Position numbers and translations under genes: made by a program
Assembly (NCBI GenBank): GCA_947453625.1
Contig: CANGHK010000004.1
Location: 62,001 to 126,000 of the forward strand
Reading direction: 5' to 3'
DNA length: 64,000 nt
Source: Burkholderiales bacterium
GTDB taxonomy: Bacteria; Pseudomonadota; Gammaproteobacteria; Burkholderiales; Burkholderiaceae_C
The notes under the pieces: model-generated
The model's database searches: none
Told to the model about the DNA's origin: nothing
Seen by the model: only the letters and a program-made list of their open reading frames with translations
Part shown: in pieces, positions 16,813 through 34,006 of the stretch
Numbering within the stretch: position 1 is the first letter of the stretch
Layout: each line of letters opens with the position of its first letter

Positions 16813-16870
16813 GTGCCGCAGCCCGCGCCTGGGTGGGCAACTCACCCGCGCCGGCGAAACACACCCGGCC

Positions 16871-17284
16871 TTACAAGCCCGGCCACATCGGCGCGGCAGG
16901 CAGCGGCTGTTGGGCCGCGCTGCCCACCGCCGTAGCCACCACCGCAGCGGCTACCGGGACGGACAAGGGGACGGCCGGCGGCAAGCCGGCTTCCAGCCTG
17001 GCGATGCGGGCCGCCAGGGCCTCGGTCTGCGGATCTGCGCCGGCGAGCTTGCCGTTCAGGTAGGGGCTGGTGCTCCACCAGTCGATGCCGATTTCCCTGG
17101 CCTTGTCGACCGAGCAGACCAACAGCCGAATCTGGATCGTCAGCAACTCGATATCGACGATCTTGATCTTGATGTCGCCGGCAATCACCAAGCCCTTGTC
17201 GAGAATCCGTTCCAGGACATCGGCCAGGGTCGCGGATTCCACCGCATGGGTCATGCTCTTTCTGGTCTTGATCGGGGTGTTCAT
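16871..17284 (-). CDS. gvpJ: GvpA-family minor gas vesicle protein (GvpJ-like) with C-terminal extension
   Basis: Residues about 11-70 (LADVLERILDKGLVIAGDIKIK and IVDIELLTIQIRLLVCSVDKA, split here) form the two-helix, two-strand core shared with GvpA, with the DWW ending common in GvpJ-type proteins. Such minor GvpA paralogues help nucleate or cap the vesicle shell. The product has 137 residues. After the core comes a 65-residue tail rich in Ala, Pro and Val (PPAVPLSVPVAAAVVATAV), longer than I expect for GvpJ. The start is ATG 17284; Met11 (17254) is an alternative that fits GvpJ family N termini. It is the last gene of the structural block. Gene order from gvpA to here parallels the gvpA1-C-N-V-F1-G-W-A2-K-X-A3 order that I recall for Serratia sp. 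ATCC 39006. Confidence 0.85.
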   Translation of the reverse strand: MNTPIKTRKSMTHAVESATLADVLERILDKGLVIAGDIKIKIVDIELLTIQIRLLVCSVDKAREIGIDWWSTSPYLNGKLAGADPQTEALAARIARLEAGLPPAVPLSVPVAAAVVATAVGSAAQQPLPAAPMWPGL

Positions 17285-17342
17285 TCTCTTCGGTCCGGTT
17301 GCATCAGCCGCCCTGCGTTACTAGACGGTTCGGGATGGCTGG

Positions 17343-17669
17343 TCACAGCAGTTTGCCCAGCGGCCCCAGGTCCAGGTTCAAGTCCTTGTCGGTCAGGTCG
17401 AACTCCTTCTTCAACCACTGCATCTGCTGGTCCAGTTCGAGGAAGGTCAGGCCCAGGCGTTCGACCTCGTCGTCGGTCAACGAACCGCCCTCGATCCGAC
17501 GCATCGCCTGCTTTTCCAGCAACTGCCGGACCAGCTCGACCAGCGTCAGGACCAGCTGCCCCAAGCCCTTCTTGACGCTCTCCGGATTGAGCGCGATGCG
17601 CGGCGACGCGGGGACTGACCCGGGCCGCTCGGGCTCGTCCGGAAACAGCAGGGACAGGGTGTCGTTCAA
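17343..17669 (-). CDS. gvpK: Gas vesicle protein GvpK
   Basis: GvpK is a small, mostly helical protein needed for vesicle assembly; its molecular task is not settled. The 108-residue product carries the family core, with NPESVKKGLGQLVLTLVEL, RQLLEKQAMRRIEGGSLTD and ERLGLTFLEL, and ends in DLNLDLGPLGKLL, a near-diagnostic GvpK terminus. The start ATG overlaps the stop of the preceding GvpA-family gene (ATGA), so the two are coupled. Fifty-eight bases separate it from gvpJ. Confidence 0.95.
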   Translation of the reverse strand: MNDTLSLLFPDEPERPGSVPASPRIALNPESVKKGLGQLVLTLVELVRQLLEKQAMRRIEGGSLTDDEVERLGLTFLELDQQMQWLKKEFDLTDKDLNLDLGPLGKLL

Positions 17670-17872
17670 ACGACCGCCTGCGTCAGACTGGCCTTGCCCC
17701 GGGCGGTCTCGACCGAGGTCAACAGCAGGTTCACGTTCAGGTAGATCAGATCGATGCCCGCAACCGAGATCACGATCTCACCCATCGCCACCACGCCGGT
17801 GTTGAGCACGCGGTCCAGCAGTTCGCACAAGGACGTTCGCTTGTCGTCAACAGGCCTCAGTCCGTTGTCCAC
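17666..17872 (-). CDS. GvpA-family minor gas vesicle protein (second paralogue, GvpS/GvpA2-like)
   Basis: The 68-residue product contains SLCELLDRVLNTGVVAMGEI and then VISVAGIDLIYLNVNLLLTS, a GvpA-type core in which the conserved D(R/K)xLxxGVV helix-strand unit is clear. Such paralogues are minor shell or accessory components. The start is a GTG at 17872, 5 bases after the stop of the upstream TPR-like gene. A longer reading (to 17944) would overlap that gene and has no GvpA similarity. The stop overlaps gvpK by four bases. In the Serratia order this position holds gvpA2. Confidence 0.85.
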   Translation of the reverse strand: MDNGLRPVDDKRTSLCELLDRVLNTGVVAMGEIVISVAGIDLIYLNVNLLLTSVETARGKASLTQAVV

Positions 17873-17876
17873 GTCT

Positions 17877-18224
17877 TCAGTCTTCCAGGGCCAGCAACCG
17901 CTCGTAGATGCTGCGCGCCATGTGTTGGTTGTTGAGGCGGCCACAGTCTTCGGCCATCGCCATCAATGCCTGCTTGGCGGCTTCTGCTTGCGGCGTGTCG
18001 GGATGGTCCTCGGCCAGCGTCCAGAACAACTCGGTGGCCTGCCGGGAACTGCCCTCGACACGGTAGCGCTGCGCCATCGCCAGCAGCCTGCCCAACAGCG
18101 CGGAAGCACCGGTCGGCTTGGGCTTGACGACCTCAGCGACTGAGGTCGGCGCAGCCATCGTCATGGCCTCGGCGGCCACCGGCGGCGTTGAGGGGTCTGA
18201 TTCAGATTCCAGGGCTGTGTTCAT
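17877..18224 (-). CDS. Small TPR-like protein in the gas vesicle operon
   Basis: I recognise no named family for this 115-residue protein. Residues 1-40 are polar and Ala/Pro/Thr-rich. Residues about 44-112 look like two helical hairpins of TPR type: AMAQRYRVEGSSRQATELFW, then LAEDHPDTPQAEAAKQALM and NNQHMARSIYERLLAL. The start has AAAGG six bases upstream. It lies between gvpG and the second GvpA paralogue, where Serratia has gvpW, and the next gene starts 5 bases later, so co-translation is likely. A scaffold or chaperone-adaptor role is plausible from the TPR-like helices but is inference. Confidence 0.75.
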   Translation of the reverse strand: MNTALESESDPSTPPVAAEAMTMAAPTSVAEVVKPKPTGASALLGRLLAMAQRYRVEGSSRQATELFWTLAEDHPDTPQAEAAKQALMAMAEDCGRLNNQHMARSIYERLLALED

Positions 18225-18350
18225 GGCAAACCTTTATTCAAATTTCAAACGCCGCCGCAGGATGGACGGGGCGCGTTCCAACACGCTGAAGCGGCACATC
18301 CCACAGGAACTGACCGAATGAAGACCCGTTGGGATGCGCCGCCCGGGTGG

Positions 18351-18686
18351 TCAGGGTGAACCCTTGGGCCCTGCATCGGGCGATCGCCCGTCTCCGTCTT
18401 CGTCTTCGTCTTCGTCTTCGTCTTCGTCTTCGTCTTCGTCTTCGTCTTCGTCTTCGCCATTCGCTTCGTTGCGCTCCCGGATCGCGTCCAGGCGGTCTAG
18501 CAGTTTGGTTTCTTCAAGCGTGAAAGCTTCCTCGGTCAGCGCCCCCGAATCCAGCTTCATGTAGAGTTCACTGAGCATGCGCGTGACGGCTTCGCCCTCA
18601 CCGGCCTGCTCCTTCTGAACCGCTTCGTTGATTTCCCTGAAAATCCACATCAACGGCGTGACGAACAGATCATCCAGCAGGAACAT
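18351..18686 (-). CDS. gvpG: Gas vesicle protein GvpG with acidic (Glu-Asp)n tail
   Basis: GvpG is a small helical accessory protein required for vesicle formation. The N-terminal 78 residues match the family: FLLDDLFVTPLMWIFREI at the start, then a helical segment with LSELYMKLDSGALTEEAF and EETKLLDRLDAIRER. The remaining part is unusual: ten consecutive Glu-Asp pairs encoded by a perfect hexanucleotide repeat, then GDGRSPDAGPKGSP. GvpG proteins normally end soon after the helix. The 111-residue reading frame is intact. GAGG lies 7 bases before the ATG and overlaps the stop region of the preceding gvpF/L gene. Confidence 0.92.
   Translation of the reverse strand: MFLLDDLFVTPLMWIFREINEAVQKEQAGEGEAVTRMLSELYMKLDSGALTEEAFTLEETKLLDRLDAIRERNEANGEDEDEDEDEDEDEDEDEDEDGDGRSPDAGPKGSP
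18397..18456. repeat. Hexanucleotide microsatellite (TCTTCG)10 inside gvpG
   Basis: Ten exact head-to-tail copies of TCTTCG on the plus strand (GAAGAC-phase on the coding strand) run over 60 bases. One imperfect copy, TCTCCG, lies directly before at 18391. Unit length is a multiple of three, so changes in copy number keep the frame and only lengthen or shorten the Glu-Asp tail. Confidence 0.97.
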
Positions 18687-18695
18687 CGAAAAGCC

Positions 18696-19454
18696 TCAAG
18701 CTGACAATGAAATACTGACGAAATTGTGCGGTGCCCACGGCCCGTTGAAATCGAACGAGAAGTTGTTGTCGAACTTGTTGGCCACCTCGAAAACCCCATC
18801 CTCGAATTCCTTCTGCGCCCCGCGGTCGACCAGGCAGGCCAGGTGCATGACCTCCCGCTCTTCATGGACAGGATTCTGTTTTATCTCGGCGCAGTGCGGT
18901 CCCAAAACGGCAAGCACCGTTTCAGTGTGGCGCTCACGGTCCTGCGTCAACAACTGGTCGAAGCGGCGGCCGAGTTCTATCTTGTCGTTCTGGGTCGGGC
19001 CGTGCGGCTTGCCCCGCATCTCGTCGCGCAGATCGGCAAGTTCCTGATGTCGGCTCACCAGATACTCAAATATATTGGGCACATCGAGCATGACGCGTAA
19101 ACCCATTTCCACCTTGCCGCGCACCCGATCGAGTTGCTCGGCAAAGGTTTTGCGGTTTTCCTTGAGAATCCCGTTCAGCGCCTTGGCGCTGTCGGCAATC
19201 GTACCGAAAGACACTGGCAAGACCGTCGTGTCCTCCATCATCCGCTTGGTCACGGCGTGGTGCACGGAAAGGTGCTTGCGCTCAGGCCGGATCCGCTTGT
19301 CGGCAATGTCACTGACCACCGCCGCGATCGCGCCGAAGGCGATGGTATAGATAGTGGCGCCGTTGATCCCGAGCCCGGGATAGTTGATGGGCGCGGTCGC
19401 GTCGGCAATCGCGTACAAATAAAATCCGGTGTCGGCCGTCGGCTCAGTTGTCAT
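18696..19454 (-). CDS. gvpF: Gas vesicle protein GvpF/GvpL (first copy)
   Basis: GvpF/L proteins bind GvpA and other Gvp proteins and are thought to act as chaperones or in nucleation of the shell. The 252-residue product starts with the typical GFYLYAIAD strand. It has the central LSVHHAVTKRMMEDTTVLPV and SFGTIAD segment, a helical middle (LKENRKTFAEQLDRVRGKVEMGLRV in parts) and ends with FDFNGPWAPHNFVSISL, the hallmark 'GPWPPYxF' end of the family. ATG 19454 lies two bases after the stop of the small gene upstream; an in-frame GTG at 19463 is the alternative. A second family member is at 24573-25418. Confidence 0.93.
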   Translation of the reverse strand: MTTEPTADTGFYLYAIADATAPINYPGLGINGATIYTIAFGAIAAVVSDIADKRIRPERKHLSVHHAVTKRMMEDTTVLPVSFGTIADSAKALNGILKENRKTFAEQLDRVRGKVEMGLRVMLDVPNIFEYLVSRHQELADLRDEMRGKPHGPTQNDKIELGRRFDQLLTQDRERHTETVLAVLGPHCAEIKQNPVHEEREVMHLACLVDRGAQKEFEDGVFEVANKFDNNFSFDFNGPWAPHNFVSISLSA

Positions 19455-19456
19455 GG

Positions 19457-19687
19457 CTACCACATCAAGGATTTGGTTTTTCGGGACTGCGCACTGCGGC
19501 TGGTGCGCAAGCGCCCGGCCGGGTCGATCAGGAATACCGCTGGCATAGGATCAGCCTGCAGCCGCCGCAAGGTCATGATATCGCGGCGGAATCGGTACAC
19601 CGAGCCGTGCGCATCACGAGCCAGCATGATTCGAAAGGCCGCTGCGCGCAGCGAGGATGTCACACTGGAAGAAGTCTTAATTTTCAT
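19457..19687 (-). CDS. Small basic protein in the gas vesicle operon, unknown
   Basis: This 76-residue, strongly basic product has no family I recognise. It contains SLRAAAFRIMLARDAHGSVYRF and PMPAVFLIDPAGRLRTSRSA in split form, so a short strand-turn-strand region sits between two Arg-rich stretches. It lies between gvpV-like and gvpF/L, on the same strand, with its stop two bases before the gvpF/L ATG. This spacing argues for a real, co-translated gene. A TTG at 19756 that overlaps the upstream stop would give 99 residues; I prefer the ATG because the extra part (GTPCPAGCQLPW) looks non-coding. Confidence 0.55.
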   Translation of the reverse strand: MKIKTSSSVTSSLRAAAFRIMLARDAHGSVYRFRRDIMTLRRLQADPMPAVFLIDPAGRLRTSRSAQSRKTKSLMW

Positions 19688-19752
19688 GACCTCGTACTCA
19701 ACAAGTTGCCAGGGTAATTGACAGCCGGCGGGACAGGGTGTCCCGCTCGCCT

Positions 19753-20121
19753 TCAATACGCCAACTGCCGGCGCTTGAGCCGGTCGGTGGGTGCCGAGTG
19801 AATCGGCAGCGGTGAGGCCGCCGCCAGTGCCGTGCCCGACCAGCCTGAACTGTTAGCCATCGGCTGAGTTTGCAGGATTTCACCCACCGAACGATCGACG
19901 AAACGCTGCAGCCATTGCTGCTTGGTCTCGATCTCGGCCATGCGGTTGCGGATCTCGAGACAACGTTGTTCGGCGCGCCGCATTTCCTTGGACAAGCGCT
20001 GCTTTTCCATTTCCAGCATCGACAATTCGAGCAAGGCACCGGAGGACGTGCGGATGCGCCGCGCATCGACCAGTCTGGCCATCGTCTTGATTTGCTGCAC
20101 GCCACGTTTTTCAGTTGCCAT
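19753..20121 (-). CDS. Coiled-coil gas vesicle accessory protein (GvpV-like by position)
   Basis: The 122-residue protein is highly charged. Residues about 28-80 (LELSMLEMEKQRLSKEMRRA, then CLEIRNRMAEIETKQQWLQR) form a long amphipathic coiled coil. The tail, about residues 88-122, is flexible. It directly follows gvpN, where proteobacterial clusters such as that of Serratia carry gvpV, and the size is right. GGAGAG lies 5 bases before the ATG. The name is based on position and general character rather than a recognised motif. It could equally be another coiled-coil accessory. Confidence 0.7.
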   Translation of the reverse strand: MATEKRGVQQIKTMARLVDARRIRTSSGALLELSMLEMEKQRLSKEMRRAEQRCLEIRNRMAEIETKQQWLQRFVDRSVGEILQTQPMANSSGWSGTALAAASPLPIHSAPTDRLKRRQLAY

Positions 20122-20154
20122 GAAGACTCTCCGACCGGTTGAAGTTCACGCGCA

Positions 20155-21099
20155 TCAAGACGCCGCCGGTACCAGCGCTGGCAACGCCGGGCAGCAGCGC
20201 TCGATGATCTCGTCCAGGCGCTCGAGGCCGGCCATCGCGCCGTCATGGGTCACCTTCAGGCAGTCCGCATTCAGCACATCGTGGCAGAGTTCGCGGAAAT
20301 CGGGGTCGCTGGCCGATACCGTGCCTTTGCGATTGGCGACGATGCGACCGAGCATGATGCAGGCGCGAATCGTCGGCCGCGCATTCTTTACCCCCAACTC
20401 GCGGAACTGTCGGACGATATCGACGATGGACTTGGCCTGCCGCCACGGCAGGCCGGACTTGGCCTGGGTGATGGCCACTTCGGTCTCATAGTCGTGGTGA
20501 CCGACCTTGATCGTGATCATCCGGTCCATCAGGGCGTCCTGTGTCTTGTGGACCCCCGCATACTCTTCCGGGTTGCTCGTGAAGAGCGCGCTGAATTGCG
20601 GATGAACCTGGATATAGCCATCGCCATTGCGCGCGTCGGGCAACTCGAGCAAACGCTCCTCAAGAATCGACAGCAGCACGTTGTTGGCCTCTGGACGCGA
20701 CCTTGTGAACTCGTCGTAAATCAAGGTGAAACCGTACTTGCAAGCCGTCGTCAGGCGGTTGTCGCCCCACTGTTTCGAGACGCTTTCTTCCTGCTTCAGG
20801 ACCGAGTGAATGTAGTTGTCAACCACCTTGACCGAACGGTAGCCGGTCTGGCCGCCGATCAGGTCGGAGCTGCCGAACTCGTCATCGCCGTGAATCAGGA
20901 CCACCTGCCGGCCGAGCTGCGCCGCCACATGCATCGCCAGCGCGGTCTTGCCGGTGCCGGCAGGGCCGCTGAAATGAACCGGATAGCCGGCGGTGATGTA
21001 ATCCAGGGCGCGCTCGGTGACGCCCTGAATGTAGGAAGTTTCGACGAAACTGGACTTTTTCTCCAGGGTCAGCACGGTTAACTCGTCAGCTTGGCTCAT
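20155..21099 (-). CDS. gvpN: Gas vesicle AAA+ ATPase GvpN
   Basis: GvpN is a MoxR-type AAA+ ATPase that supports vesicle growth, probably by remodelling GvpC or the shell. The 314-residue protein has Walker A GPAGTGKT (residues 45-52), the family segment IHGDDEFGSSDLIGGQTGY, Walker B TLIYDEFTRSRPEANN with the acidic pair at 129-130, and sensor 1 in FSALFTSNPEEYAGVHKTQD. These match GvpN closely in length and order. It follows the gvpC-like gene, as in most clusters, with GAGG about 10 bases before the ATG. It is distinct from the double-AAA protein at 25415. Confidence 0.95.
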   Translation of the reverse strand: MSQADELTVLTLEKKSSFVETSYIQGVTERALDYITAGYPVHFSGPAGTGKTALAMHVAAQLGRQVVLIHGDDEFGSSDLIGGQTGYRSVKVVDNYIHSVLKQEESVSKQWGDNRLTTACKYGFTLIYDEFTRSRPEANNVLLSILEERLLELPDARNGDGYIQVHPQFSALFTSNPEEYAGVHKTQDALMDRMITIKVGHHDYETEVAITQAKSGLPWRQAKSIVDIVRQFRELGVKNARPTIRACIMLGRIVANRKGTVSASDPDFRELCHDVLNADCLKVTHDGAMAGLERLDEIIERCCPALPALVPAAS

Positions 21100-21156
21100 T
21101 GCAGGGTTTCCTCATCCATTAAAACTGTGGCGCAACAACTGGGGCAGCTGCCGACA

Positions 21157-21930
21157 TTACTTCTTCTTGGCTTTCCAGACCGTCTTCGGAAAATGCGGCA
21201 GCACCTCGGGCTCGGTCGTATGGGCAGCGCTGGGGCTGCTTTGCTCCGAGGCCTCGGGCGGCGCGCTGACTTCGGCCGGCGCGACAGCCACCAGGGCTTC
21301 TGGCGCCACTTCTGGCGCCACTTCTGGCGCCACTTCTGGCGCCACTTCTGGCGCCACTTCTGGCGCGGCGACCGGCGCACTGTCGGGAAGCGCCGATTCT
21401 TCTACCGGCAGCGGGTCAGGCAGGGCGCTCGGCGCCAGCGGGGCGGGCGCAGCGGCGGGTCTGGCCGCGTGGAATTGCCGCAGCAGATCGGTAGCGGCCT
21501 GGACACGCTCGATCCGGTGGCTTGACAACTCCGCTTGCTGATCTCTGGCCTGGCGGCGCCTTGACAGCGCCACCTCGGCATACTTACGGTCGGTTTCGGT
21601 CCGAATCGAGTTGACGGCGTCGATCACCGACGCACGCGACTCGAGCAGACTCAGGCGGAGTTCTTGTCCCATCTGGACATGGCTGACGCGGAAGTCCTCG
21701 CAGATCTTGATCGCCTCATCACGCAGCGCCATCACCTCGGCCGAGCGGTTCAATCGGTCCGCGGCCAACCTGGCGTGAAGTGTCTTGGCCACGGCGCGGC
21801 GTTCACGGCCAAAACCGCGCAGCATCTGGCCGGTCTGAACCTTGATATCACCGACGAGTCGCGTCCGCGCGGATGTCGACGAGGCGATGTCCTGAAGCAG
21901 GACGGCCATTTGACTTCTCCAGCTATGCAT
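21157..21930 (-). CDS. gvpC: GvpC-like gas vesicle reinforcement protein
   Basis: GvpC coats and stiffens the vesicle surface with helical repeats. Residues about 1-150 of this 257-residue protein are long, charged helices. RRRQARDQQAELSSHRIERV, followed by QAATDLLRQFHAAR, recalls the QAxxQAxELxxFxxxL pattern of cyanobacterial GvpC, though clear 33-residue repeats are not visible. Residues about 155-240 are Pro/Ala-rich and include six APE units in tandem, five of them encoded by perfect 12-bp repeats. The end is a basic KTVWKAKKK. It sits between gvpA and gvpN, the usual gvpC position. AGAGGA lies upstream of the ATG at 21930. The name is by position and helical pattern. Confidence 0.75.
   Translation of the reverse strand: MHSWRSQMAVLLQDIASSTSARTRLVGDIKVQTGQMLRGFGRERRAVAKTLHARLAADRLNRSAEVMALRDEAIKICEDFRVSHVQMGQELRLSLLESRASVIDAVNSIRTETDRKYAEVALSRRRQARDQQAELSSHRIERVQAATDLLRQFHAARPAAAPAPLAPSALPDPLPVEESALPDSAPVAAPEVAPEVAPEVAPEVAPEVAPEALVAVAPAEVSAPPEASEQSSPSAAHTTEPEVLPHFPKTVWKAKKK
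21301..21360. repeat. Five perfect 12-bp tandem repeats in the gvpC-like gene
   Basis: Five exact copies of TGGCGCCACTTC (plus strand) run without gaps. On the coding strand they specify Ala-Pro-Glu-Val units in frame. The flanking sequence continues as one degenerate copy on the 3' side (TGGCGCGGCGAC). Copy-number change would preserve the reading frame. Confidence 0.97.
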
Positions 21931-22087
21931 TTTAATTTCCTCTTTCTGGGCGGGGCATGCCGCCTATTTCCACCACAGCGCGAAAATCAACTTGGACTGG
22001 TTATCGTGCCGCCGGTTCAAATCTCGTGGCAAAGACCCCGCCGGGAGAATAACCTCCCGGCAGGGGAACACTAGAGCAACTGGCTTA

Positions 22088-22306
22088 TCAGGCCGGCGCA
22101 GCAGCGCTCGACGTGAGGCCAATCGCCTCAGCGTACTTGAGGTAGGTCTCAACCGAAGCGATCACGATACGCGCCTCGATCGACAGCAGCTCAATGCCGA
22201 CCAGCGACACCTTGACCCAGGCGTCGATGACGATGCCCTTGTCAAGGATGCGGTCGACGACTTCGGCCAGGCTCGACGAGTCGGTGGACTTTTGGACTTT
22301 TGCCAT
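22088..22306 (-). CDS. gvpA: Major gas vesicle shell protein GvpA
   Basis: GvpA is the small hydrophobic protein that makes up the gas vesicle wall. The 72-residue product is almost canonical: [40 protein letters not shown] and [15 protein letters not shown] follow one another with no gap, then a short Thr/Ser/Ala tail. The start is ATG 22306 with GGAG 7 bases upstream; a TTG six bases earlier would add two residues and is less likely. It is the first gene of the structural block, directly behind a consensus sigma-54 promoter. Its own operon continues through gvpC, gvpN and on to gvpJ. High expression is expected, since the wall needs many copies. Confidence 0.98.
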
Positions 22307-22389
22307 TTTCAATCTCCAATTGTTGCTTACCCCTATTTACGGATACCAGGTACGGAGTGCGGGGTTAGGCCCTTCGTACAAAAAGGATT

Positions 22390-22406
22390 AGCAACAAGCG
22401 TGCCAA
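22390..22406 (-). promoter_or_regulatory. Sigma-54 (RpoN) promoter of gvpA
   Basis: Read on the minus strand the sequence is TTGGCACGCTTGTTGCT, which matches the -24/-12 consensus TGGCAC-N5-TTGCW at every conserved position, including GG and GC ten bases apart. The expected start of transcription is near 22379, leaving an untranslated leader of about 73 bases before the gvpA ATG. A sigma-54 promoter needs an ATP-driven activator; one is encoded at 28217-29761 in the same island. Confidence 0.9.
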
Positions 22407-22459
22407 ATTGCAGGAAATTGGTGGAGAAGAATTTTCTTCAATGCCATCAAGGACTTGCG

Positions 22460-22514
22460 CTGAAATACCGGATCGGGTCCCGGCGAAGAATCAGCAGCGC
22501 ATCTGAAATACCGG
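22460..22514. promoter_or_regulatory. Paired direct repeats upstream of the gvpA promoter, candidate activator sites
   Basis: CTGAAATACCGG occurs at 22460-22471 and again at 22503-22514, exactly 43 bases apart (about four helical turns, so on the same face). They lie about 85 and 130 bases upstream of the predicted gvpA start, the usual place for enhancer sites of NtrC-type activators. That they bind the island's own activator is inference. A short inverted repeat (GTCCG/CGGAC) at 22584-22598 is a further candidate. Apart from these and the sigma-54 promoter, the 338 bases between gvpA and the response regulator hold no gene. Confidence 0.6.
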
Positions 22515-22644
22515 GGCTCGCCCGCCGCAGCTATGGTGTGGATTCCCTAGTCCCAGGGTGCTCCAGCCGCATTTCCGGTCGCAGTCCGGCGCACGGACCG
22601 ATCCCTTTGCCGAACTGGCGCAGCCCAGACGGGCCGTTTTGCTG

Positions 22645-23049
22645 CTAGACAACGGGCGGCGCCGTGGCGGCCAGCGCCGACCGGATCGAGTTGAGGATCT
22701 CGGCGTGCCGAAAGGGTTTTGTCACAAACGCCGAAATCAGACCGGTTCGCAAACTTTGCTGGACCAGGTTGTCATCCTTGTAGAAAAAGCCGGACACCAG
22801 GATCACCGGCGCGAGACAGCATCGCTGGCGCCGTATCAACTGGGCCAGTTCAACCCCATCGACATCCGACAGTTTGGCGTCGAGCAGGATCAGGTCGCAG
22901 GCCTGCCCCGGCTGAGCCAACCATTGCAGCGCCGCGTCCCCGCTGACCGCCGTGGCCACCGCAAAGCCGTTGCGCAGCAGGATCATTTCCAGCGACCAGC
23001 GAACGTCGGCTTCGTCGTCGATCACCAGCACCGTCTTGACATGGGTCAT
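22645..23049 (-). CDS. Single-domain response regulator
   Basis: This 134-residue protein is a receiver domain and nothing else. It has the acidic pair in VLVIDDEADVR, the phospho-acceptor Asp in LILLDAKLSDVDG, the switch Ser in ILVSGFF and the conserved Lys in VTKPFRHAE. With no output domain it must act by protein contact, as CheY or Spo0F do, or as a phosphate sink. Its ATG overlaps the stop of the histidine kinase gene (ATGA), so the pair is co-translated and probably cognate. It closes the distal gas vesicle block. Confidence 0.92.
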   Translation of the reverse strand: MTHVKTVLVIDDEADVRWSLEMILLRNGFAVATAVSGDAALQWLAQPGQACDLILLDAKLSDVDGVELAQLIRRQRCCLAPVILVSGFFYKDDNLVQQSLRTGLISAFVTKPFRHAEILNSIRSALAATAPPVV

Positions 23050-24569
23050 TCGGCCTCCATCGCCAACGGCAGGCGCAAGACAAAGGTCGTGCCAACGCCC
23101 TCGACGCTGCTTTCAACCGCGATCACCCCACCATGCTGCTTGACCAGGGTATGGCAGATCGACAGGCCCAGACCCGTGCCCTGGCCGGCTGGTCGGGTGG
23201 TGAAAAAGGGGTCGAATATCCGGCCCAACAACTGTGGCGACATCCCGCTGCCGGTATCGCTGACGCGCAGCACGGCGCTGGCGGCCTCGCGGCTGATGGA
23301 AACCGTGACCCGGCCCTCGGCCGGCGTCGCCTGGTAGGCATTCAGGATCAGATTCATCAATACCTGCTGCAGCAGGTTGGGATTGCCCGAGATCGGCACC
23401 ACGGCTTGCGGGAAATCCTCGATCAAGCTGATTCGCTGCAGTTTGGCCTGCGGTGTCAGCACGGTGACGGTGTCATGCGCCAGTGCGACCAGATTCAGCG
23501 GCTCGGTGTCGCTGCTCGAGGACGGCCGGGCGAAACGCAGCAGGTTCTCGATGATGATCGATGAGCGCTCGATACCTTCGATGATCTTTTGGACGCATTC
23601 CTTCTGAAAGGCCGGATCGGTCGGTTCCTCGAGCAGGAACTGCGCCGCCGAATAACTCACCGACAGCGGGTTTCTCAACTCATGCGCGATGCCGCCCGCC
23701 ATCACCCCCAGCGCGGCGAGTTTCTCGCTTTGCTGGACATGGCGCTCGAGTGCCCGACGCTCGGACAAGTCGCGGCCGACCGCCACCACGCCACTGACCA
23801 TGCCCGAGTCGTCGCGGATGGTCGAGAACGACCAATCGACCGGCACCAGACTGCCCGACTTGTTCAACAGGTTGATTTCCCGAAAATCGACCCGTTCACC
23901 GTCAATCAGTTGGGCGATGACACCGACCATCTCGGGACGTCGAGAAATTTCGCACAAGTCGGCCAGTGGCTGGCCGTGGACCTCGCCGGCATGGAATCCC
24001 GATATCCTATTGGCGGCCGCGTTCCAACTCGTGATGGCGCCGTCCGCATCGGTCGATATCACCAGATCCTGCGCACTTTCGATCACGCTCGCCAGGTGGC
24101 GTTCGGCCACGCGCGCCTTCTCGATCAACTGCACTTTCTCGGTGATGTCGTCCATCACCAGAATGGCATGCTGCACCCCACGGCCGGAGGTGATCGGGAT
24201 CACGGTGTAGTAGAAGATGCGGCTCGGAAAGCCCGGCGCCCGGTAGGTGATCTGGGCCCCGCTCACGGTCGATCCGGTATCGAACAGACGGTTTATCTTG
24301 GCTTCGAGCTGGGTGGTTTCCAGTATCGAATCCGGAAATATGTCGCGAATTCGCAGACCAACCGTATTGGCTTCGGTGCGCCGGGATTTTTCGATGAAAT
24401 TGCGGTTGGCCAGCACCACCCGTTGCGCCGGGTCGATCAGCACGATCGAGTACGGGATGTGGCGAAGCAGCATCTCGCAGAGCTTTTGATACCAGCCATC
24501 GGAAAGTATGGCCGACACCGGCAAGCCAAGGGCTTGCGCGAGGCCAATATCCGCTCTGTTGGGGGGCAT
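23046..24569 (-). CDS. PAS-domain sensor histidine kinase in the gas vesicle island
   Basis: The 507-residue kinase has no membrane helix, so it is cytosolic. PAS-like domains cover about residues 30-150 and 160-280. The HisKA dimerisation domain has the phosphorylated His in GIAHELRNPLSV. The ATPase domain has the N box NLLQQVLMNLILNAYQA, G1 DTGSGM and G2 GTGLGLSI. The soluble PAS layout suggests it senses an internal cue such as redox state, oxygen, energy or a small ligand. The start follows the gvpF/L stop by a 3-base gap. The likely partner is the co-translated receiver at 22645; the NtrC-type receiver at 28217 is a second candidate target. Confidence 0.93.
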   Translation of the reverse strand: MPPNRADIGLAQALGLPVSAILSDGWYQKLCEMLLRHIPYSIVLIDPAQRVVLANRNFIEKSRRTEANTVGLRIRDIFPDSILETTQLEAKINRLFDTGSTVSGAQITYRAPGFPSRIFYYTVIPITSGRGVQHAILVMDDITEKVQLIEKARVAERHLASVIESAQDLVISTDADGAITSWNAAANRISGFHAGEVHGQPLADLCEISRRPEMVGVIAQLIDGERVDFREINLLNKSGSLVPVDWSFSTIRDDSGMVSGVVAVGRDLSERRALERHVQQSEKLAALGVMAGGIAHELRNPLSVSYSAAQFLLEEPTDPAFQKECVQKIIEGIERSSIIIENLLRFARPSSSSDTEPLNLVALAHDTVTVLTPQAKLQRISLIEDFPQAVVPISGNPNLLQQVLMNLILNAYQATPAEGRVTVSISREAASAVLRVSDTGSGMSPQLLGRIFDPFFTTRPAGQGTGLGLSICHTLVKQHGGVIAVESSVEGVGTTFVLRLPLAMEAE

Positions 24570-24572
24570 GGC

Positions 24573-25418
24573 TCAGCCCTGCGGCAGCGGCGGACAAAAG
24601 TTGTAGGGCGGCCAGGGCCCTTTCAACTCGAAGGCCAGACCGATCGCTTCGCCTTCTTGCTGCTGCTCGGCCAGTGCCGCCTGGAACTCGGCCAGGTTCT
24701 CGGGCGCGAGCAGGAAACTGGCGTTGAACATCATGCGCTGCACCCGCCCGGTGACGGCGCTGCTGTGGCGGCGCAAGCCCGCGCTGGCCTCGGCGTGCAC
24801 GGCCAGAGCTTGCCCGATCGCTGCGCTGGCAACTTCCAGCCCGGCCTCCAGCGCCGCATCCATCATCGTTTCGATCCGTTTCTGCAGCAGGTAGCGGGCA
24901 CCCGGTGAAGCCGGCAAGGCGGCCAGGCGGGCTTGAATCTCGGGGTCGCGCGCGGCGAAACCGGTACGGGCCTGTTGTTCGTCCAGATAGCCCTTGACGC
25001 TCCACTCGGCCATGCCACGCAGGCGGTCCAGCGCCTGCGCGATGTCCAGACGGTGCCGCGCCAGGAAAGCGATCAAACTCTCGCGCGAGCTGAAGATCGT
25101 GCCGAACTTGACCGGCAAGACCGGCGAAGCCGCCATGGTCCAGGCCACCACGCCCTCATGCCGACTGGCCCTGGCCCCCAGCCAGGACAGGTCTTGCAGG
25201 TTGTGCTCGGAAAACTCGGCGATCACCACCTGCCCGACCACCGCGCTGACGCCGCCCACGCTGAGCCGGGTGACCGGGTAGCGCTGATCCACACCCTCCG
25301 GGGCCTGTTCCAGCACCCCGTTGACCGCCGGAAGCGCCGCGGATTCGGCGATGCAGTACAGGTACAGACCGAGCGGGTCGGCATCGGCCTCGGATGGGCC
25401 GGTCGGCACCGGGTTCAT
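24573..25418 (-). CDS. Gas vesicle protein GvpF/GvpL (second copy)
   Basis: The 281-residue protein belongs to the same family as that at 18696. It has GLYLYCIAE near the N terminus, HEGVVAWTMAASPVLPVKFG in the middle, long charged helices and the diagnostic end ELKGPWPPYNFCPPLPQG. In other species several GvpF/L members act together in shell nucleation, so a second gene in the regulator block is not redundant by default. It overlaps the AAA ATPase stop by four bases and leads into the kinase gene 3 bases later, so it is embedded in a tightly coupled operon. Exact F versus L identity is not decidable here. Confidence 0.93.
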   Translation of the reverse strand: MNPVPTGPSEADADPLGLYLYCIAESAALPAVNGVLEQAPEGVDQRYPVTRLSVGGVSAVVGQVVIAEFSEHNLQDLSWLGARASRHEGVVAWTMAASPVLPVKFGTIFSSRESLIAFLARHRLDIAQALDRLRGMAEWSVKGYLDEQQARTGFAARDPEIQARLAALPASPGARYLLQKRIETMMDAALEAGLEVASAAIGQALAVHAEASAGLRRHSSAVTGRVQRMMFNASFLLAPENLAEFQAALAEQQQEGEAIGLAFELKGPWPPYNFCPPLPQG

Positions 25419-27565
25419 GGCCTGATCTCGCTGAGCGCAGCATGAAAATGCCGGGCATGGACCCGCAGCGTGGACGCCTTTGCCTGCTTCTTGTCGCCCG
25501 CCTGCGCGATCCGCTCGCGGATCGCCGCCAATGCCGCCTGGTTGCAGACCGCCCCCAGATCGGCGCCGCTCAGGCCTTCGGTCTGGCCGGCCAGCTCAGC
25601 CAGGTCGACGTCGGCGGCCACCGGCTTGCCGCGAACCTGGACTTGCAGAATGGCCAGGCGCTCGGTCGCGTCGGGCAGTCCTATCTGCACCACCACATCG
25701 AAACGGCCGGGCCGCAGCAGGGCAGGATCGACCATGTCGGGCCGGTTGGTGGCGGCCAGCACCATCACACCAGTCAGTTTCTCGACGCCGTCGAGTTCGG
25801 CCAGGAACTGGCCGACCACCCGCTCGCTGACCCCGCCATCCGAGCCGCCACTGCCGCGGCGCGGCACCAGCGCATCGATCTCGTCGAAGAACACCAGGCA
25901 GGGTGCGGCCTGCTTGGCCTTGCGAAAGACTTCGCGCACGGCCTTCTCGGACTCACCGATGTACTTGGACAACAGCGCCGGACCCTTGACCGAGATGAAG
26001 TTGACCTGGGTCGAACTGGCCGCTGCCTGAGCAAGCAAGGTCTTGCCGCAACCGGGCGGGCCGCACAGCAGCACGCCCTTGAGCGGCTTGACGCCGGCCA
26101 CCGCAAACAACTCGGCGTACTTCTGCGGCCATTCCAGCAGTTCGCGCAGCAGGCGCTTGGGTTGTTCCAGCCCGCCCACATCGTCCCAGGACGTGGTGGG
26201 CACCTCGACGAACACCTCGCGCAGCGCCGAAGGCTCGACTTCGCGCAGGGCGGCCAGGAAGTCATCCCGGCAGAGCTCGAGCTTGAGCAGCGCGTCATAG
26301 GGCAAGCTGGCCTGGGCAAAGTCGATGTCGGGCAGGATACGGCGCACGCAGACCATCGCCGCTTCGCGGCAAAGCGCCTCGATGTCGGCGCCGACGAAAC
26401 CGTGGGTGATGTCGGCCAGCCGCGCCAGGTCGACATCCTGTGCCAGGGGCATGCCGCGGGTATAGATCTCGAAGATGGCCAAGCGGCCGTGGCGGTCGGG
26501 GATGGGGATCGCGATCTCGCGGTCGAAGCGACCCGGACGGCGCAGCGCGGGGTCGAGCGCATTGGGAATGTTGGTCGCCGCGATGACGATGACCTGACCG
26601 CGTGCCTTGAGCCCGTCCATCAGGCTCAGCAACTGGGCCACCACCCGGCGCTCGACCTGGTGCTCGGCACCCAGGTCTTCGCGCTTCGGGGCGATCGAAT
26701 CGATCTCGTCGATGAAGATGATGCTGGGCGCGTTCTTGGTCGCGTCCTCGAACAGCTTGCGCAGATAGCCCTCGGACTCGCCGTAAAACTTCTGCATGAT
26801 CTCGGGGCCGCTGATCGAGAAGAAGCGGACGTCGGTTTCGTGCGCGACGGCGCGCGCAATCAGGGTCTTGCCGCAGCCCGGCGGCCCGTAGAGCAGCACG
26901 CCCTTGGGCGCGGCGATGCCCAGGCGGGTGAAGACCTCCGGGTAGCGCAGCGGCAGCTCGATGATCTCGCGCACGCGCTGCACTTCGCGCTTCAGCCCGC
27001 CGATGTCCTCGTAGGAGAAGGCGGCACGGCCGGCAGGCGCTGTCTTGGCCTCGGTCTGCGCGGGGCCGACACTCAGCACGGTGCTCGGCGCGATCAGCAC
27101 CGGCCCCTTGGGCGCGGTATCGAGCACCAGGAAGTCGAGGAAGCGGCTGCCGAACAGGGTGCCGCGTATCTGGTCGCCCTCGACCACCGGCAAGCCGTCG
27201 AGCCTGGCGCCGATGTAGGCCAGGTCGCGGTCGGACAGCCCGGCCGCCGTGGGCGAGAGCACGATGCGCTGCGCCGGCTTTGCCAGCACCTTGCGCACCG
27301 TCACGCTGTCGTCGAGCGCGACTCCCGCGTTGCCCCTCGACAGTCCGTCGAGCTGGACCCGGGCCGCGCCGCGCATGTCCTTGTAGGCCGGCAACAGCTT
27401 GCACACCGTGCGGCGTTTGCCGACGACTTCGACGATGTCGCCAATCTCCGCGCCCAGGACCTGGATGTCGGCGGGGTCCATGCGCGCCAGCGCCCGCCCC
27501 ACGTCCTTGCCCAGCGCCTCGGTCACCTTCAGGCGCAAGCCACCTTCTGCGGGCTTCTTCATCAT
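25415..27565 (-). CDS. CDC48/p97-like AAA ATPase with two AAA domains
   Basis: The 716-residue protein has a CDC48-type N domain (residues about 1-160, with the double-psi barrel strand [20 protein letters not shown]), a first AAA module with Walker A GPPGCGKT (227-234) and Walker B IIFIDE (282-287), and a second with Walker A GPPGCGKT (502-509) and Walker B LVFFDE (557-562). Both have arginine-finger-type RRPGRFD/LRPGRFD segments. CDC48 hexamers use ATP to pull apart protein complexes. In this island it may dismantle or quality-control shell proteins, or load GvpA. The true start is ATG 27565, overlapping the gvpH stop (TGATG). An in-frame extension to 27616 is not coding-like. I recall similar genes in other proteobacterial gas vesicle clusters. 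Confidence 0.93.
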
Positions 27566-28167
27566 CAGACCCCGGCCGACTTCTTCAGCACGATCTCGAG
27601 CATGCCGTTGCGGCATTGAAAGCTCATCTGACCCGCGCTGAAGCTGGCGGGCAGCAGCATCTCCTTGCGGTACTTGAGTTCGCCGGCTTCGGCCACGATC
27701 AGCAGGATGTCGTCCTGCAGATCGAGCTGGATCTGCTGCGCTTCGACGCCCGGCAGCTCGGCGACGATCAGCAAGCGGCCGGGCTCGTCGAACAAGTCGA
27801 CCAGCGGCTCGCGGATCTCGTGCACCACCACCAGCTTGCCGGCGTCGTCGCGCCGGATGTTGCCGAAGGGCTCGACCTTGACCGAAGGCTGGCCCGGCCC
27901 GGACTTGATCGAGAAGCCGTAGACGCCCTTGACCCGCGAGTCCGAGGCGCGCCCGAATTCACCGGTCCTGGTGACGGCGCCACCGTTCTGGTCGGCTTGC
28001 TCGGCGAGTTTTCCCAACTGCCCGAGCAGTCCGCCCAAGCCACCCAGCAAACCGCCGCCGGCGGGCGGCACCTGGGTTTGACCAAACATCGAACCCAGGC
28101 GGCGGCCGATTTCATCGAGCCGCTCCTTGGCGGTCGAAAAATCATCGGAATGGTTGTTTTCAGCCAT
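27565..28167 (-). CDS. gvpH: Gas vesicle protein GvpH, Hsp20-type
   Basis: The 200-residue protein has a polar N terminus, a Gly/Leu-rich stretch (GGGLLGGLGGLLGQLGKLAE) and a C-terminal alpha-crystallin-like domain (about residues 105-198). That domain has PLVDLFDEPGRLLIVAELPG, the ELPGV motif, and ends with CRNGMLEIVLKK, the family's last strands. Small heat-shock-type GvpH proteins are thought to keep GvpA or GvpL soluble or to regulate the system. Its stop overlaps the start of the AAA ATPase by one base (TGATG), so the two probably work in one step. It starts about 50 bases after the activator gene ends. Confidence 0.9.
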   Translation of the reverse strand: MAENNHSDDFSTAKERLDEIGRRLGSMFGQTQVPPAGGGLLGGLGGLLGQLGKLAEQADQNGGAVTRTGEFGRASDSRVKGVYGFSIKSGPGQPSVKVEPFGNIRRDDAGKLVVVHEIREPLVDLFDEPGRLLIVAELPGVEAQQIQLDLQDDILLIVAEAGELKYRKEMLLPASFSAGQMSFQCRNGMLEIVLKKSAGV

Positions 28168-28216
28168 CGGTGCATCTCCAATATTCCAGCGGGTGAGCGG
28201 GCCGGCAGCGCCGCTT

Positions 28217-29761
28217 TCAAACTATCTCAGGCAGACGCAATTCAGCGGCTACCTGGGTCGTGCAGATCTCATACAATTTGATTTTGGTATGGATAGTCTT
28301 GTAATCGATTTGCAGTATCCGGGCGGCCAGCGCCTTGTTGCCATGGCTGATGCGCAACGCGCGCAGCAGGATCTCGCGCTCTATGCGTGCGTTGCACTGG
28401 CCGGTCATCTCCTTGAACGACAAGCCCAGCCCTGGCGTCAACAGATCCTGCGAACCGCAGACGTCGCAGGTGGACGGGCCGGCGCAAGGCGCTGCGGCGG
28501 CAGGGCCGGGAGCGGTGGGCAGCGCCTTGCCAACGCGCTCATCGAGCGCGCCCAGGTGCTCGGGCAGGATCAGGCCGTCGGCCTCGTCGCACAGCAGCAC
28601 CGCGCGGCGCAGCTGGTTTCTCAGTTCGCGCACATTGCCGGGCCAGCTGTAGCGATCGATAAGCCCCCAGGCGGCGGTCGACAGCGCTTGCACACGCTTG
28701 CCCAGTTCCATGTTGGTCTGGTTCAGGATCCGGTCCACCAGGAAGCGGAGATCCTCCCGACGCTCACGCAGGGGCGGGATGCGGATCGTGTACTCGGCCA
28801 GCCGGTGGTAGAGGTCGCCGCGAAAAGTCTGCTCCTCGACCATCGCCAGCAAGTCGGCGTTGGTCGCCGCGACGACCCGGAAATCGACGTCCACTTCCCT
28901 GGCGCTGCCAACCCGCTGGATGCGACGGGTCTCGAGCACCCGCAGCAGCTTGCCCTGCATCACGAGCGGCAGGTTGCCGATCTCGTCGAGGAAGATGGTC
29001 CCGCCCGCGGCCAGTTCGAAAGCGCCGGTCTTGGCCTGGTAGGCGCCGGTGAAAGCGCCCTTGTCATGACCGAACAATTCGCTCTCGATCAGCGACCCGG
29101 GAATCGCGCCGCAGTCCACCGCCACCAGCGGCTTGCCACCGGCGCGCAGGCTGCAGGCATGGATGGCTTGCGACACCAATTCCTTGCCGGTTCCCGATTC
29201 ACCGGTCACCAGCACCGAGAAGTTGGTCCTCGCAACCCGCTCCACCTCGTTCTGGACCCGGCGCACCGCGGCGCTGTCGCCCATGCAGGTCAGCAGGAGT
29301 CCTGGCTGCGGGCCACCCATCTGCCGGTAATGCCGCCTCGAGCCGATGTCCTCCAACGCATGGCGCACCGTCAACGTGACATCGGCGTTGTTGAAGGGCT
29401 TGGTCAGGTATTCATAGGCGCCCGCGCGGATCGCCCTGACGGCGTCATGGGTCTTGCCGTTGGCGGTGACCATGATCACATGCATCGCCTTGTCGGGCAC
29501 CCTTGCCCGCGCCAGCACCTCGAAACCGTCGATATCGGGCAAGCCGATGTCGAGCAAGACCACATCGGGTTCGTCCTGCTCGATGCAGATCAGCGCCTGG
29601 GCGCCTGTCGCGGCCACCAGGGGTGTCCATCCGGCCTGCCGGATCAAGGCCGAGAGCACCCAGCGGGCGTCATCCAGGTCATCGACGATCAGCACCTTGG
29701 GCGATCCAGTTGGCCGCGAGCCGGATTTGCAGACCGCCCACCGTGGGTCGGTGCTGCTCAT
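28217..29761 (-). CDS. NtrC-family sigma-54-dependent activator of the gas vesicle genes (GvrA-like)
   Basis: The 514-residue protein has a receiver (residues about 22-138; acidic pair Asp27-Asp28, phospho-acceptor Asp71 in VVLLDIGLPD, Lys121). The central AAA+ domain has Walker A GESGTGKE (187-194), the sigma-54 contact loop GAFTGA (235-240) and Walker B FLDE (257-260). The C terminus has a factor-for-inversion-type helix-turn-helix (NKALAARILQIDYKTIHTKI). GAFTGA is required to drive sigma-54 promoters, and a consensus one lies before gvpA. A four-cysteine-rich insert (CAGPSTCDVCGSQ, near 445) precedes the DNA-binding part and could bind metal. It overlaps the unknown gene upstream by four bases. 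Confidence 0.93.
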   Translation of the reverse strand: MSSTDPRWAVCKSGSRPTGSPKVLIVDDLDDARWVLSALIRQAGWTPLVAATGAQALICIEQDEPDVVLLDIGLPDIDGFEVLARARVPDKAMHVIMVTANGKTHDAVRAIRAGAYEYLTKPFNNADVTLTVRHALEDIGSRRHYRQMGGPQPGLLLTCMGDSAAVRRVQNEVERVARTNFSVLVTGESGTGKELVSQAIHACSLRAGGKPLVAVDCGAIPGSLIESELFGHDKGAFTGAYQAKTGAFELAAGGTIFLDEIGNLPLVMQGKLLRVLETRRIQRVGSAREVDVDFRVVAATNADLLAMVEEQTFRGDLYHRLAEYTIRIPPLRERREDLRFLVDRILNQTNMELGKRVQALSTAAWGLIDRYSWPGNVRELRNQLRRAVLLCDEADGLILPEHLGALDERVGKALPTAPGPAAAAPCAGPSTCDVCGSQDLLTPGLGLSFKEMTGQCNARIEREILLRALRISHGNKALAARILQIDYKTIHTKIKLYEICTTQVAAELRLPEIV

Positions 29762-30354
29762 GGCGTCGCGCCCGGGGTAGGCTTGAGCGATGGCAGCAGG
29801 TTCCTGACCAGGATGTCGTCAGGCAGCAAAGGCGACACGTTGTGGGCCAGACCCAGGAACAACAGGCCGATCTCGCCTGCCGCAAGCGTGGCATCGATGC
29901 GCGCGGCGATGAAGCGGTCGCGCTCGGCCAGCAGGCGCAGGCTCTGGTCCTCGCGTGCGCTGTCCTGCCCGCCGGCACGCAGCGCGCCCTGGTGAAACTG
30001 GTATTCCTGCAGCAGCAGGCGAGGATCTTCGGTGCCCATCAAGCGGCAACCCTGCTGAATCAGTTGCAACAGCAACTGGTGGTTCTTGCTGCCTTGGGCG
30101 GCGACATCCTTGACGATCTCGACTTCCTTGCCGCAGATCGGCAAACCGTCCTGGTACAGGCGCACCGAAGTGCAGGGCAGTTCGAGCGCGGTGATGACGG
30201 CATGGATGCCGTCCCAGAACCCGTCGATGGCGTCCAGGTGTTGCGCCCACTTGGCCAGACCAAAGCGCGCAACATATTCATGCTTTGTCCGATCGAGCAA
30301 TGACCCGAGGTCATGCTTGGTATGAATGATGGGAACCAGGATAAGCGTACGCAT
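29758..30354 (-). CDS. Conserved unknown protein heading the gas vesicle regulator operon
   Basis: The 198-residue protein has no signal peptide or membrane helix and no family I can name with confidence. It starts with a hydrophobic strand MRTLILVPIIHTKHDLGSLL and contains GLPICGKEVEIVKDVAAQGS, NHQLLLQLIQQGCRLMGTED and a C-terminal DDILVRNLLPSLKP. The IVPIIHT start and the KNHQLL segment look like conserved elements and could hold a ligand site. It is first in the distal block, about 180 bases downstream of the predicted promoter, and its stop overlaps the NtrC-type activator by four bases. This coupling suggests a regulatory or signal-modifying job. No clear Shine-Dalgarno sequence is seen. 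Confidence 0.75.
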   Translation of the reverse strand: MRTLILVPIIHTKHDLGSLLDRTKHEYVARFGLAKWAQHLDAIDGFWDGIHAVITALELPCTSVRLYQDGLPICGKEVEIVKDVAAQGSKNHQLLLQLIQQGCRLMGTEDPRLLLQEYQFHQGALRAGGQDSAREDQSLRLLAERDRFIAARIDATLAAGEIGLLFLGLAHNVSPLLPDDILVRNLLPSLKPTPGATP

Positions 30355-30522
30355 TGATCAAACGATGCCAATGGTTGAATCCGAACCCTGAGCGATAATA
30401 TCTCCCGGAAAATACAATCCCGCCCCATCAGCGCCGCATACAGATCACCCGAAGATCCACTGCACGAGGCGGCACTGTCGATTGACCGACCTTGAAGCGC
30501 TACGACGGCGCGCGCGACGGTC

Positions 30523-30611: not shown

Positions 30612-30782
30612 GTTTGTTTACATAATAATATTATTTTTAATGTAATTTAATAAAATTATTTTTATTTATTTTAAATAAAAATGCTTTTTTGATATTTTAT
30701 GTAATCTGTCCGGTCATCGAGTCGTCGGTGCGCGCCACAGGTCGGGGCGCAGAGCCAGGCGCGCCGCGGCCTGTGAATCAGG

Positions 30783-32066: not shown

Positions 32067-32104
32067 CGTGGCCGGATTGTCTCAGTCCGGTCATGACAGG
32101 CAGG

Positions 32105-33040: not shown

Positions 33041-33076
33041 GCTCGTCTCTGGTGGTTTTCCGGTATCGTGACACGG

Positions 33077-34006
<930 letters not shown>

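Follow-up and report, generated by a model that had tools for sequence, protein, structure and literature searches.

Does the island of genes on the minus strand of this DNA amount to an intact gas vesicle system, and how did it come to stand in one member of its genus? The stretch analysed (the window) comprises 64,000 nt of a Burkholderiales genome; positions 16871-30354 hold an intact cluster of 17 genes, identified by Pfam and NCBIfam matches and by place (Table 1). We favour, with a probability of roughly 0.87, an account in which this is an intact two-operon cluster under GvrA/sigma-54 control, with the unnamed gene u198 as an accessory, gained or lost as a block.

Gene content and predicted control

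A preliminary description of the locus had named most of these genes, and Pfam and NCBIfam place all of them on the minus strand where it had put them. A gvpV-like gene, a gvpW-like gene and u198 were added to its list, bringing the total to 17. The frame check of the window found no broken frame among the island genes. A whole-genome profile search gave exactly three matches to PF00741, all inside the island (E values 2.9e-17, 1.7e-16 and 1.3e-14): the GvpA shell protein and two further GvpA-type proteins. The Serratia-type core set also includes gvpF/L, gvpG, gvpK and gvpN, which are likewise present. The island had been called complete; this holds by core set only, because gvpF3, which is required in Serratia according to the available text of PMC4982088, was not found in the window. 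Pfam recognises two GvpL/F genes there, and tblastn found two, and no gvpF3, in the near betaproteobacterial clusters; gvpX and gvpY are also absent from the window's cluster.

Table 1. Features of the gas vesicle island, in window coordinates
Feature	Position	Strand	Description
u198	29758..30354	-	198 aa, unnamed family, first gene of predicted gvrA operon; no Pfam or NCBIfam match for the window's protein
gvrA	28217..29761	-	NtrC-type sigma-54 activator with receiver domain; PF00158 1.3e-64, PF00072, Fis-type HTH
gvpH	27565..28167	-	Hsp20-like; NCBIfam archaeal Hsp20 113.1 bits, below its cut-off of 140
gvpZ	25415..27616	-	CDC48-type AAA ATPase; TIGR01243 874.7 bits (cut-off 802.65)
gvpF2	24573..25418	-	GvpL/F family; PF06386 2.3e-54
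gvrB	23046..24569	-	PAS-PAS-HisKA-HATPase sensor kinase
gvrC	22645..23049	-	stand-alone receiver; PF00072 4.5e-19
predicted sigma-54 site TGGCAC-N5-TTGCT	22390..22405	-	83 nt upstream of gvpA1 ATG; exact match
gvpA1	22088..22306	-	main shell protein, 72 aa; NF006874 134.6 bits, above cut-off; PDB 8gbs 1.9e-32
gvpC-like	21157..21930	-	divergent, C-terminal APEV repeats; between gvpA1 and gvpN
gvpN	20155..21099	-	AAA ATPase; TIGR02640 357.9 bits (cut-off 266.8)
gvpV-like	19753..20121	-	by position; tblastn matches at same place in relatives
gvpF1	18696..19463	-	GvpL/F family; PF06386 1.1e-66
gvpG	18351..18686	-	PF05120 5.4e-11; Glu-Asp tail
gvpW-like	17877..18224	-	TPR-like; PF13428 8.1e-4, below cut-off; same position in relatives
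gvpA2	17666..17944	-	GvpM type in review's scheme; PF00741 1.3e-14
gvpK	17343..17669	-	PF05121 6.3e-33
gvpA3	16871..17284	-	GvpJ type in review's scheme; PF00741 1.7e-16
stretch missing in congener G015	16807..30810		68 nt in its place (blastn, L115 vs window)

Some gene calls carry qualifications. The GvpC-like call is supported by position, by 25-42% tblastn matches in relatives and by an N-terminal pattern common to relatives (by eye); no match was found in the family libraries searched. The name gvpZ was assigned by position in the Serratia order, and translation of this gene probably begins where gvpH stops, about 17 codons downstream of the annotated start. The true start of gvpA2 is internal to its annotated frame. 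The Glu-Asp tail of gvpG is encoded by a 6-nt tandem repeat (18389-18469). The window contains no tRNA and no Rfam family at gathering score.

By analogy with Serratia, the genes would form two operons that together lead to vesicle formation. The first, u198-gvrA-gvpH-gvpZ-gvpF2-gvrB-gvrC, would supply a sensor kinase, a receiver, a sigma-54 activator and chaperone-like proteins. GvrA would activate the sigma-54 promoter of the second operon, gvpA1-C-N-V-F1-G-W-A2-K-A3, with GvrB and GvrC sharing in the control of gvpA1; this operon would provide the shell (GvpA1 and the GvpC-like protein), minor GvpA-type proteins and assembly factors. The outcome for the cell would be buoyancy.

A predicted sigma-54 promoter precedes gvpA1, as in Serratia-type clusters, and is the only exact sigma-54 match in the window. 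Sites with up to two mismatches are not above chance across the window (30 seen, 38.6 expected); support for the gvpA1 site therefore comes from its exactness, its place and its conserved spacing. Near loci were defined as the 19 whose GvpN shows 79% identity or more (L004-L020, L024, L025), 16 of which contain gvpA1 (L005, L016 and L018 do not). In 14 of these 16, a site scoring 9 to 11 out of 11 lies 83-86 nt before gvpA1; in the deviants, L017 and L019, the site scores 9/11, has altered first bases and stands 82 and 90 nt upstream. Several of the 9/11 sites are individually not significant against shuffles (p 0.06-0.12). Scores of at least 10/11 occur in 24 of 73 upstream regions, the window included and some of them before paralogues, and in none of 42 regions before gvrA, which are largely u198 coding sequence. 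Ahead of u198, the single sigma-70-like site (30572-30543) is no more than chance would give (1 seen, 1.9 expected).

Gain or loss of the island

The island has been gained or lost as a single block between two convergent genes, adh and mscS. This is visible in the congener G015, where the two genes are adjacent and 68 nt stand in place of the 14,004 in the window. The empty junction was read in G015 only; in the other congeners examined, the two flanking genes are widely separated or split between contigs, or only one of them is present. PF00741 was found in one of 21 genomes of the genus, that of the window (one of 12 when genomes below 90% completeness are set aside), and in 3 of 399 genomes of the order. 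Lower G+C had been noted for gvpA, gvpN and the promoter regions; it is real and is not confined to them, since the whole island has 63.5% against a flank mean of 70.5% (sd 3.1%, n = 97 overlapping 1-kb windows). This suggests transfer.

Acquisition of the block from a lower-G+C betaproteobacterium, with regulation as in Serratia, has a slightly better than even chance of being correct. The empty site, the patchy presence and the lower G+C all argue for it, as does the occurrence of gvp clusters on plasmids in other bacteria; against this, no mobile gene was met in the island and the gvp tree does not nest the window inside another host group.

Vertical inheritance within this part of the betaproteobacteria, with loss in most congeners, is somewhat less probable than an even chance; G015 would then show a clean loss and not a pre-insertion state. 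In the concatenated gvp tree as in the RpoB tree, the sister of the window is a Rhodoferax-like set (SH-aLRT of that set 85 and 100), and a Pfam/NCBIfam scan of the 17 island genes and the two flanking genes met neither an integrase nor a transposase. The presence of the cluster in a single genome of the genus, its G+C and the exact empty site speak against vertical descent, as do conflicts between the trees just outside the window's set: the nearer hosts are L015/L016 by RpoB and L052 (Nitrosomonadaceae) by gvp, and L017 with L018, and L024, are also placed differently. Such conflicts mean that transfers or mis-binning do occur. The RpoB trees are without L042 and L057 (dropped) and L009 and L019 (no usable RpoB). 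The preliminary description had judged the locus to be in line with transfer and had proposed comparing gas vesicle and species trees; the empty site and the G+C agree with that judgement, but the trees place the window alike and disagree just beyond its set. As a cluster, the island extends a known organelle to one more host; thanks to the clear empty site, gain or loss can be tested inside a single genus.

The unnamed gene u198

The new element here is u198, which is unnamed in the databases searched and is met repeatedly next to gas vesicle genes across many bacterial groups. Its stop end shares 4 nt with the start of gvrA. Of 89 loci examined, 35 carry u198, and in 30 of these it adjoins gvrA. 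An alignment of homologues has 25 rows and 29 invariant columns; its numbering, the structure model and the plasmid search are based on a 197-aa form without the start Met. u198 occurs in 67 of 78 genomes with window-like gvpN (44/48 plus 23/30), a sample biased to this cluster type because it was found with the window's own GvpN. The sample giving 44/48 also included G057, with u198, and G042, without it; L062 and L083 were excluded from the genome counts, since another locus already represents each of their genomes. Eleven loci genomes are without u198: L067 and L071 are long loci that also lack gvpH and gvpZ; in L005, L013, L030, L045 and L061 the contig begins inside the cluster; and the loci L068, L076, L079 and L080 are short or incomplete.

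On plasmids, u198 was found in 4 of 72,556 records, all four with gvpN; among the matches listed, only 4 of 25 plasmid records annotated gvpN carry it. A draw of 397 other genomes of the same phylum, with at most eight candidates scored per genome, contained no u198. Five other genomes in this draw match PF00741 (four above cut-off), none with u198. Two of these five, G532 and G717, have gvpH and gvpZ; they rule out the rule, suggested by the loci, that u198 always accompanies these two genes. In Octadecabacter, u198 lies about 25 kb from gvpN. Searches of PHROGs and of PDB sequences each gave one chance-level match (E 0.029 and 1.3, respectively). A literature search over running text, with few subscription papers, found no gene named at this place.

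The AlphaFold2 model of u198 has a pLDDT of 89.1 and a pTM of 0.84. Its best Foldseek match is ChaN (2g5g; E 0.061, probability 0.84, TMq 0.45); nothing was found at E<=0.001, nor was anything at that level found among viral structures. PF01963 gives weak matches (E up to 1; best 0.0023) in 11 of 25 family members and none for the window's own protein. The hhalign scores of u198 are 28.8 with TraB, 22.2 with ChaN, 23.7 with the unrelated GvpN and 12-19 with five others, while TraB against ChaN scores 26.6; the probabilities are 10% (TraB) and 1.5% (ChaN). An RD...GxxH stretch of u198 aligns with TraB/PrgY/GumN, although no match of u198 to that family or to ChaN is above any cut-off. A TraB/ChaN-like fold is possible.

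In the most likely reading, u198 is one more accessory protein without a name and would work alongside the gvrA-gvpH-gvpZ set, either in quality control during assembly or in signalling; it is the linkage that points to this role. A more specific version is tentative: u198 may be an undescribed accessory family, TraB/ChaN-like and perhaps metal-dependent, that removes or edits misassembled vesicle proteins together with Hsp20-like GvpH and CDC48-type GvpZ, or signals to GvrA, and that has travelled with gas vesicle clusters over about eleven phyla. It is unlikely that u198 is a passenger or regulator-linked gene without a vesicle role: its absence from the named Serratia genes in the available text of PMC4982088 and PMC9501494, the two genomes that have gvpH and gvpZ but not u198, and the distant Octadecabacter copy would fit, but the invariant columns, the adjacency to gvrA and the absence from the other genomes of the phylum would not.

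Acoustic reporters are built by transferring gas vesicle clusters from one organism to another, and deletion of accessory genes alters the reporter signal (PMC10344784, available text). A conserved gene that has no name and comes first in the predicted regulatory operon is therefore worth deliberate inclusion or deletion.

Comparison with published gas vesicle sets

The island is a Serratia-type gas vesicle cluster, atypical in G+C. The structural genes follow the order A1 C N V F1 G W A2 K A3 given for Serratia sp. ATCC 39006 in the available text of PMC4982088 and PMC9501494; this parallel, already drawn in the preliminary description, is one of order and not of compared sequence. The regulator block had been thought to differ. 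In fact, gvrA (NtrC type), gvrB (kinase) and gvrC (receiver) stand in one block with gvpH, gvpZ and gvpF2, and gvrA-gvpH-gvpZ-gvpF2-gvrB-gvrC is the Serratia order from the same sources minus gvpF3. A sigma-54 site ahead of gvpA1 is also common to both (PMC4982088, available text). The window differs from Serratia in lacking gvpF3, gvpX and gvpY and in having u198 before gvrA; the Serratia list available in print has no u198, in a comparison by names only that left Ser39006_001280 (PMC10344784, available text) aside.

Gas vesicles had been called rare in betaproteobacteria. The counts in the genus and the order bear this out; the published Burkholderiales sets and the recurrent betaproteobacterial MAGs do not. 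They are patchy here, yet already in print for the Burkholderiales, the order to which Polaromonas vacuolata belongs. The gvp set published for P. vacuolata KCTC 22033 has GvpA1-3, C, F1, F2, G, H, N, V, W and Z in common with the window, by list and not by sequence, and lists GvpF3 and GvpX as well (PMC11267810, available text). Rhodoferax antarcticus Fryx1 has vesicles (PMC5374385), and a Burkholderia gas vesicle cluster was drawn in 2016 (PMC4982088), again from the text available of each; the literature search found no paper on Accumulibacter gas vesicles.

A GvpN scan found betaproteobacterial MAGs with GvpN 85-92% identical to that of the window. The assignment to Burkholderiales has indirect support from RpoB, which in the window's genome shares 84-88% identity with betaproteobacterial records, one of them from Rhodoferax. 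Seven clusters from Rhodoferax and other betaproteobacterial MAGs (L004, L007, L009, L010, L012, L024, L025) have the same gene order from u198 to gvpA3. Their GvpA1 is 99% and their GvpN 88-92% identical to the window's, their other cluster proteins are 29-83% identical, and their hosts differ from that of the window (RpoB 84-85% in the six where RpoB was found).

Gene content and origin of the island

The island is an ordinary but clean representative of a known kind of gas vesicle cluster, with one unnamed conserved gene. Its 17 genes are closely spaced. The upstream part comprises u198, gvrA, gvpH, gvpZ, gvpF2, gvrB and gvrC; the downstream part comprises gvpA1, a gvpC-like gene, gvpN, a gvpV-like gene, gvpF1, gvpG, a gvpW-like gene, gvpA2, gvpK and gvpA3. 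Genes were identified by Pfam and NCBIfam profile searches; gvpV, gvpW, gvpC and gvpZ were named from their place in the Serratia order. These identities, and intact reading frames in all 17 genes, bear out the gas vesicle island proposed in the preliminary description. All three PF00741 matches in a genome-wide search lie inside it. Acidic GvpG tails are also found in 15 relatives listed; their length and composition vary.

Features of the island and its flanks (window positions)
Feature	Position	Strand	Remarks
adh	15334-16812	+	zinc alcohol dehydrogenase gene, island flank
Island	16871-30354	-	17 genes
gvpG tail repeat	18389-18469		6-nt tandem, 13.5 copies, encodes Glu-Asp
Sigma-54 site TGGCACGCTTGTTGCT	22405-22390		exact match, 83 nt upstream of gvpA1 ATG
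u198	29758-30354	-	first gene, 198-aa protein
AT-rich repeat	30623-30680		25-nt, within region upstream of u198
mscS	30783-32066	-	MscS-type channel gene, island flank

PF00741 occurs in one of 21 genomes of the genus (the window's own), in 3/399 of the order and in 6/398 of a phylum draw, five of these over the cut-off. Within the order, the cluster of G057 is largely of the window's type; that of G042 (locus L205) is of a different type, in which gvpN, gvpH, gvpZ and u198 were not detectable. In the congener G015, the flanking genes adh and mscS are adjacent. Window positions 15718-16806 and 30811-33250 match its locus L115 at 338-1426 (86.4%) and 1495-3944 (82.6%), leaving a junction of 68 nt versus 14,004 nt in the window. 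None of the other congeners compared shows adh next to mscS. As previously claimed for some genes, G+C is low: 63.5% for the whole island versus a mean of 70.5% in flanking 1-kb windows (sd 3.1%, n=97, overlapping).

Quick trees were built from seven concatenated Gvp proteins (20 rows, three less than half filled) and from RpoB (18 rows). The window's place agrees: in both it is sister to the Rhodoferax-like set (SH-aLRT of the set itself 85 for gvp and 100 for RpoB). Branches outside this group conflict. By RpoB, loci L015 and L016 come next, with L052 and L018 outside those; in the gvp tree L052 comes next, and L015 and L016 group with L017, L018 and gammaproteobacterial L020. The island was thus gained or lost as a block; the evidence fits either direction.

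L017 and L018, a record titled Nitrospirae and a betaproteobacterial record, stand together in the gvp tree and apart by RpoB; this reflects either transfer or mis-binning.

The unnamed gene u198

The Pfam and NCBIfam libraries searched gave no family name for u198. An alignment of 25 homologues has 29 invariant columns, including H10, D14, Y66, Q67, D68, G69, E76, E108, E116, R144, D145 and H170 (numbered without the start Met). The predicted structure is confident (pLDDT 89.1, pTM 0.84). Weak evidence points to a TraB/ChaN-like fold: PF01963 matches 11 of the 25 homologues weakly (E up to 1, best 0.0023), the best Foldseek match is ChaN (weak, E 0.061), and TraB scores highest of eight profiles in hhalign (probability 10%).

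Linkage to gvp genes is strong but biased. Of 89 loci examined, 35 hold u198, and gvrA adjoins it in 30 (at most 170 nt between match ends); on two methanotroph plasmids it sits between gvpH and gvpZ. It occurs in 67 of 78 genomes with window-like gvpN (44/48 and 23/30 in two sets); going by the titles given to MAG records, these represent about eleven phyla. Four of 72,556 plasmid records match, all with gvpN; just 4 of 25 gvpN-annotated plasmid records listed have u198. On Octadecabacter plasmid pOA238_160 (L157 20001-20567; L208) it is ~25 kb from gvpN and separate from the gvp operon; several transposase genes lie in the interval. In the phylum draw, u198 was found in none of the 397 other genomes (at most eight candidates scored per genome). 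Five of these carry a PF00741 match: G532 and G717, with gvpH and gvpZ; G636 and G651, with neither; and G752. From these counts, therefore, u198 was met only in genomes and plasmids with gas vesicle genes in the samples examined, and is not universal there.

In Serratia, deletion of the unannotated cluster gene Ser39006_001280 is reported to increase acoustic signal (PMC10344784). Unnamed yet conserved, u198 merits testing.

Regulation

Sixteen near loci (GvpN at least 79% identical) hold gvpA1. In 14 (L004, L006-L015, L020, L024, L025) a sigma-54 site with 9-11 of 11 matches lies 83-86 nt upstream of its ATG; L017 and L019 have 9/11 sites at 82 and 90 nt. By contrast, scores of at least 10/11 occur in 0/42 regions upstream of gvrA and 4/23 upstream of u198. 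In L008, L012 and L025, a sequence 69 nt before u198 resembles a sigma-54 site at 10 or 11 of 11 positions, so their regulator operon may be self-controlled; the same scoring finds no such site upstream of u198 in the window. Here the region before u198, 30355-30782, has 44% G+C versus ~70% in the flanks and may be a silenced promoter region.

Comparison with known clusters

The upstream block encodes an NtrC-type activator, a PAS kinase and a receiver. Together with the predicted sigma-54 site this is, by sequence, the Serratia arrangement; the earlier view that the regulator block differs does not hold. Full gvpA1 expression in Serratia requires GvrA, GvrB and GvrC (PMC4982088). The Serratia clusters are given as gvpA1CNVF1GWA2KXA3Y and gvrA-gvpHZF2F3-gvrB-gvrC (PMC9501494); unlike these, the window has no gvpF3, gvpX or gvpY. 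Although gvpF3 is described as essential in Serratia (PMC4982088), its absence does not by itself imply a dead cluster, since near betaproteobacterial clusters likewise show just two GvpL/F genes. Among 80 loci found by GvpN search, whole near betaproteobacterial clusters share the window's gene order, with GvpA1 97-99% and GvpN 85-92% identical. The patchy occurrence of PF00741 in genus and order agrees with the description of gas vesicles as rare in betaproteobacteria, but Burkholderiales cases are already in print: Polaromonas vacuolata (PMC11267810), Rhodoferax antarcticus Fryx1 (PMC5374385) and a Burkholderia cluster (PMC4982088).
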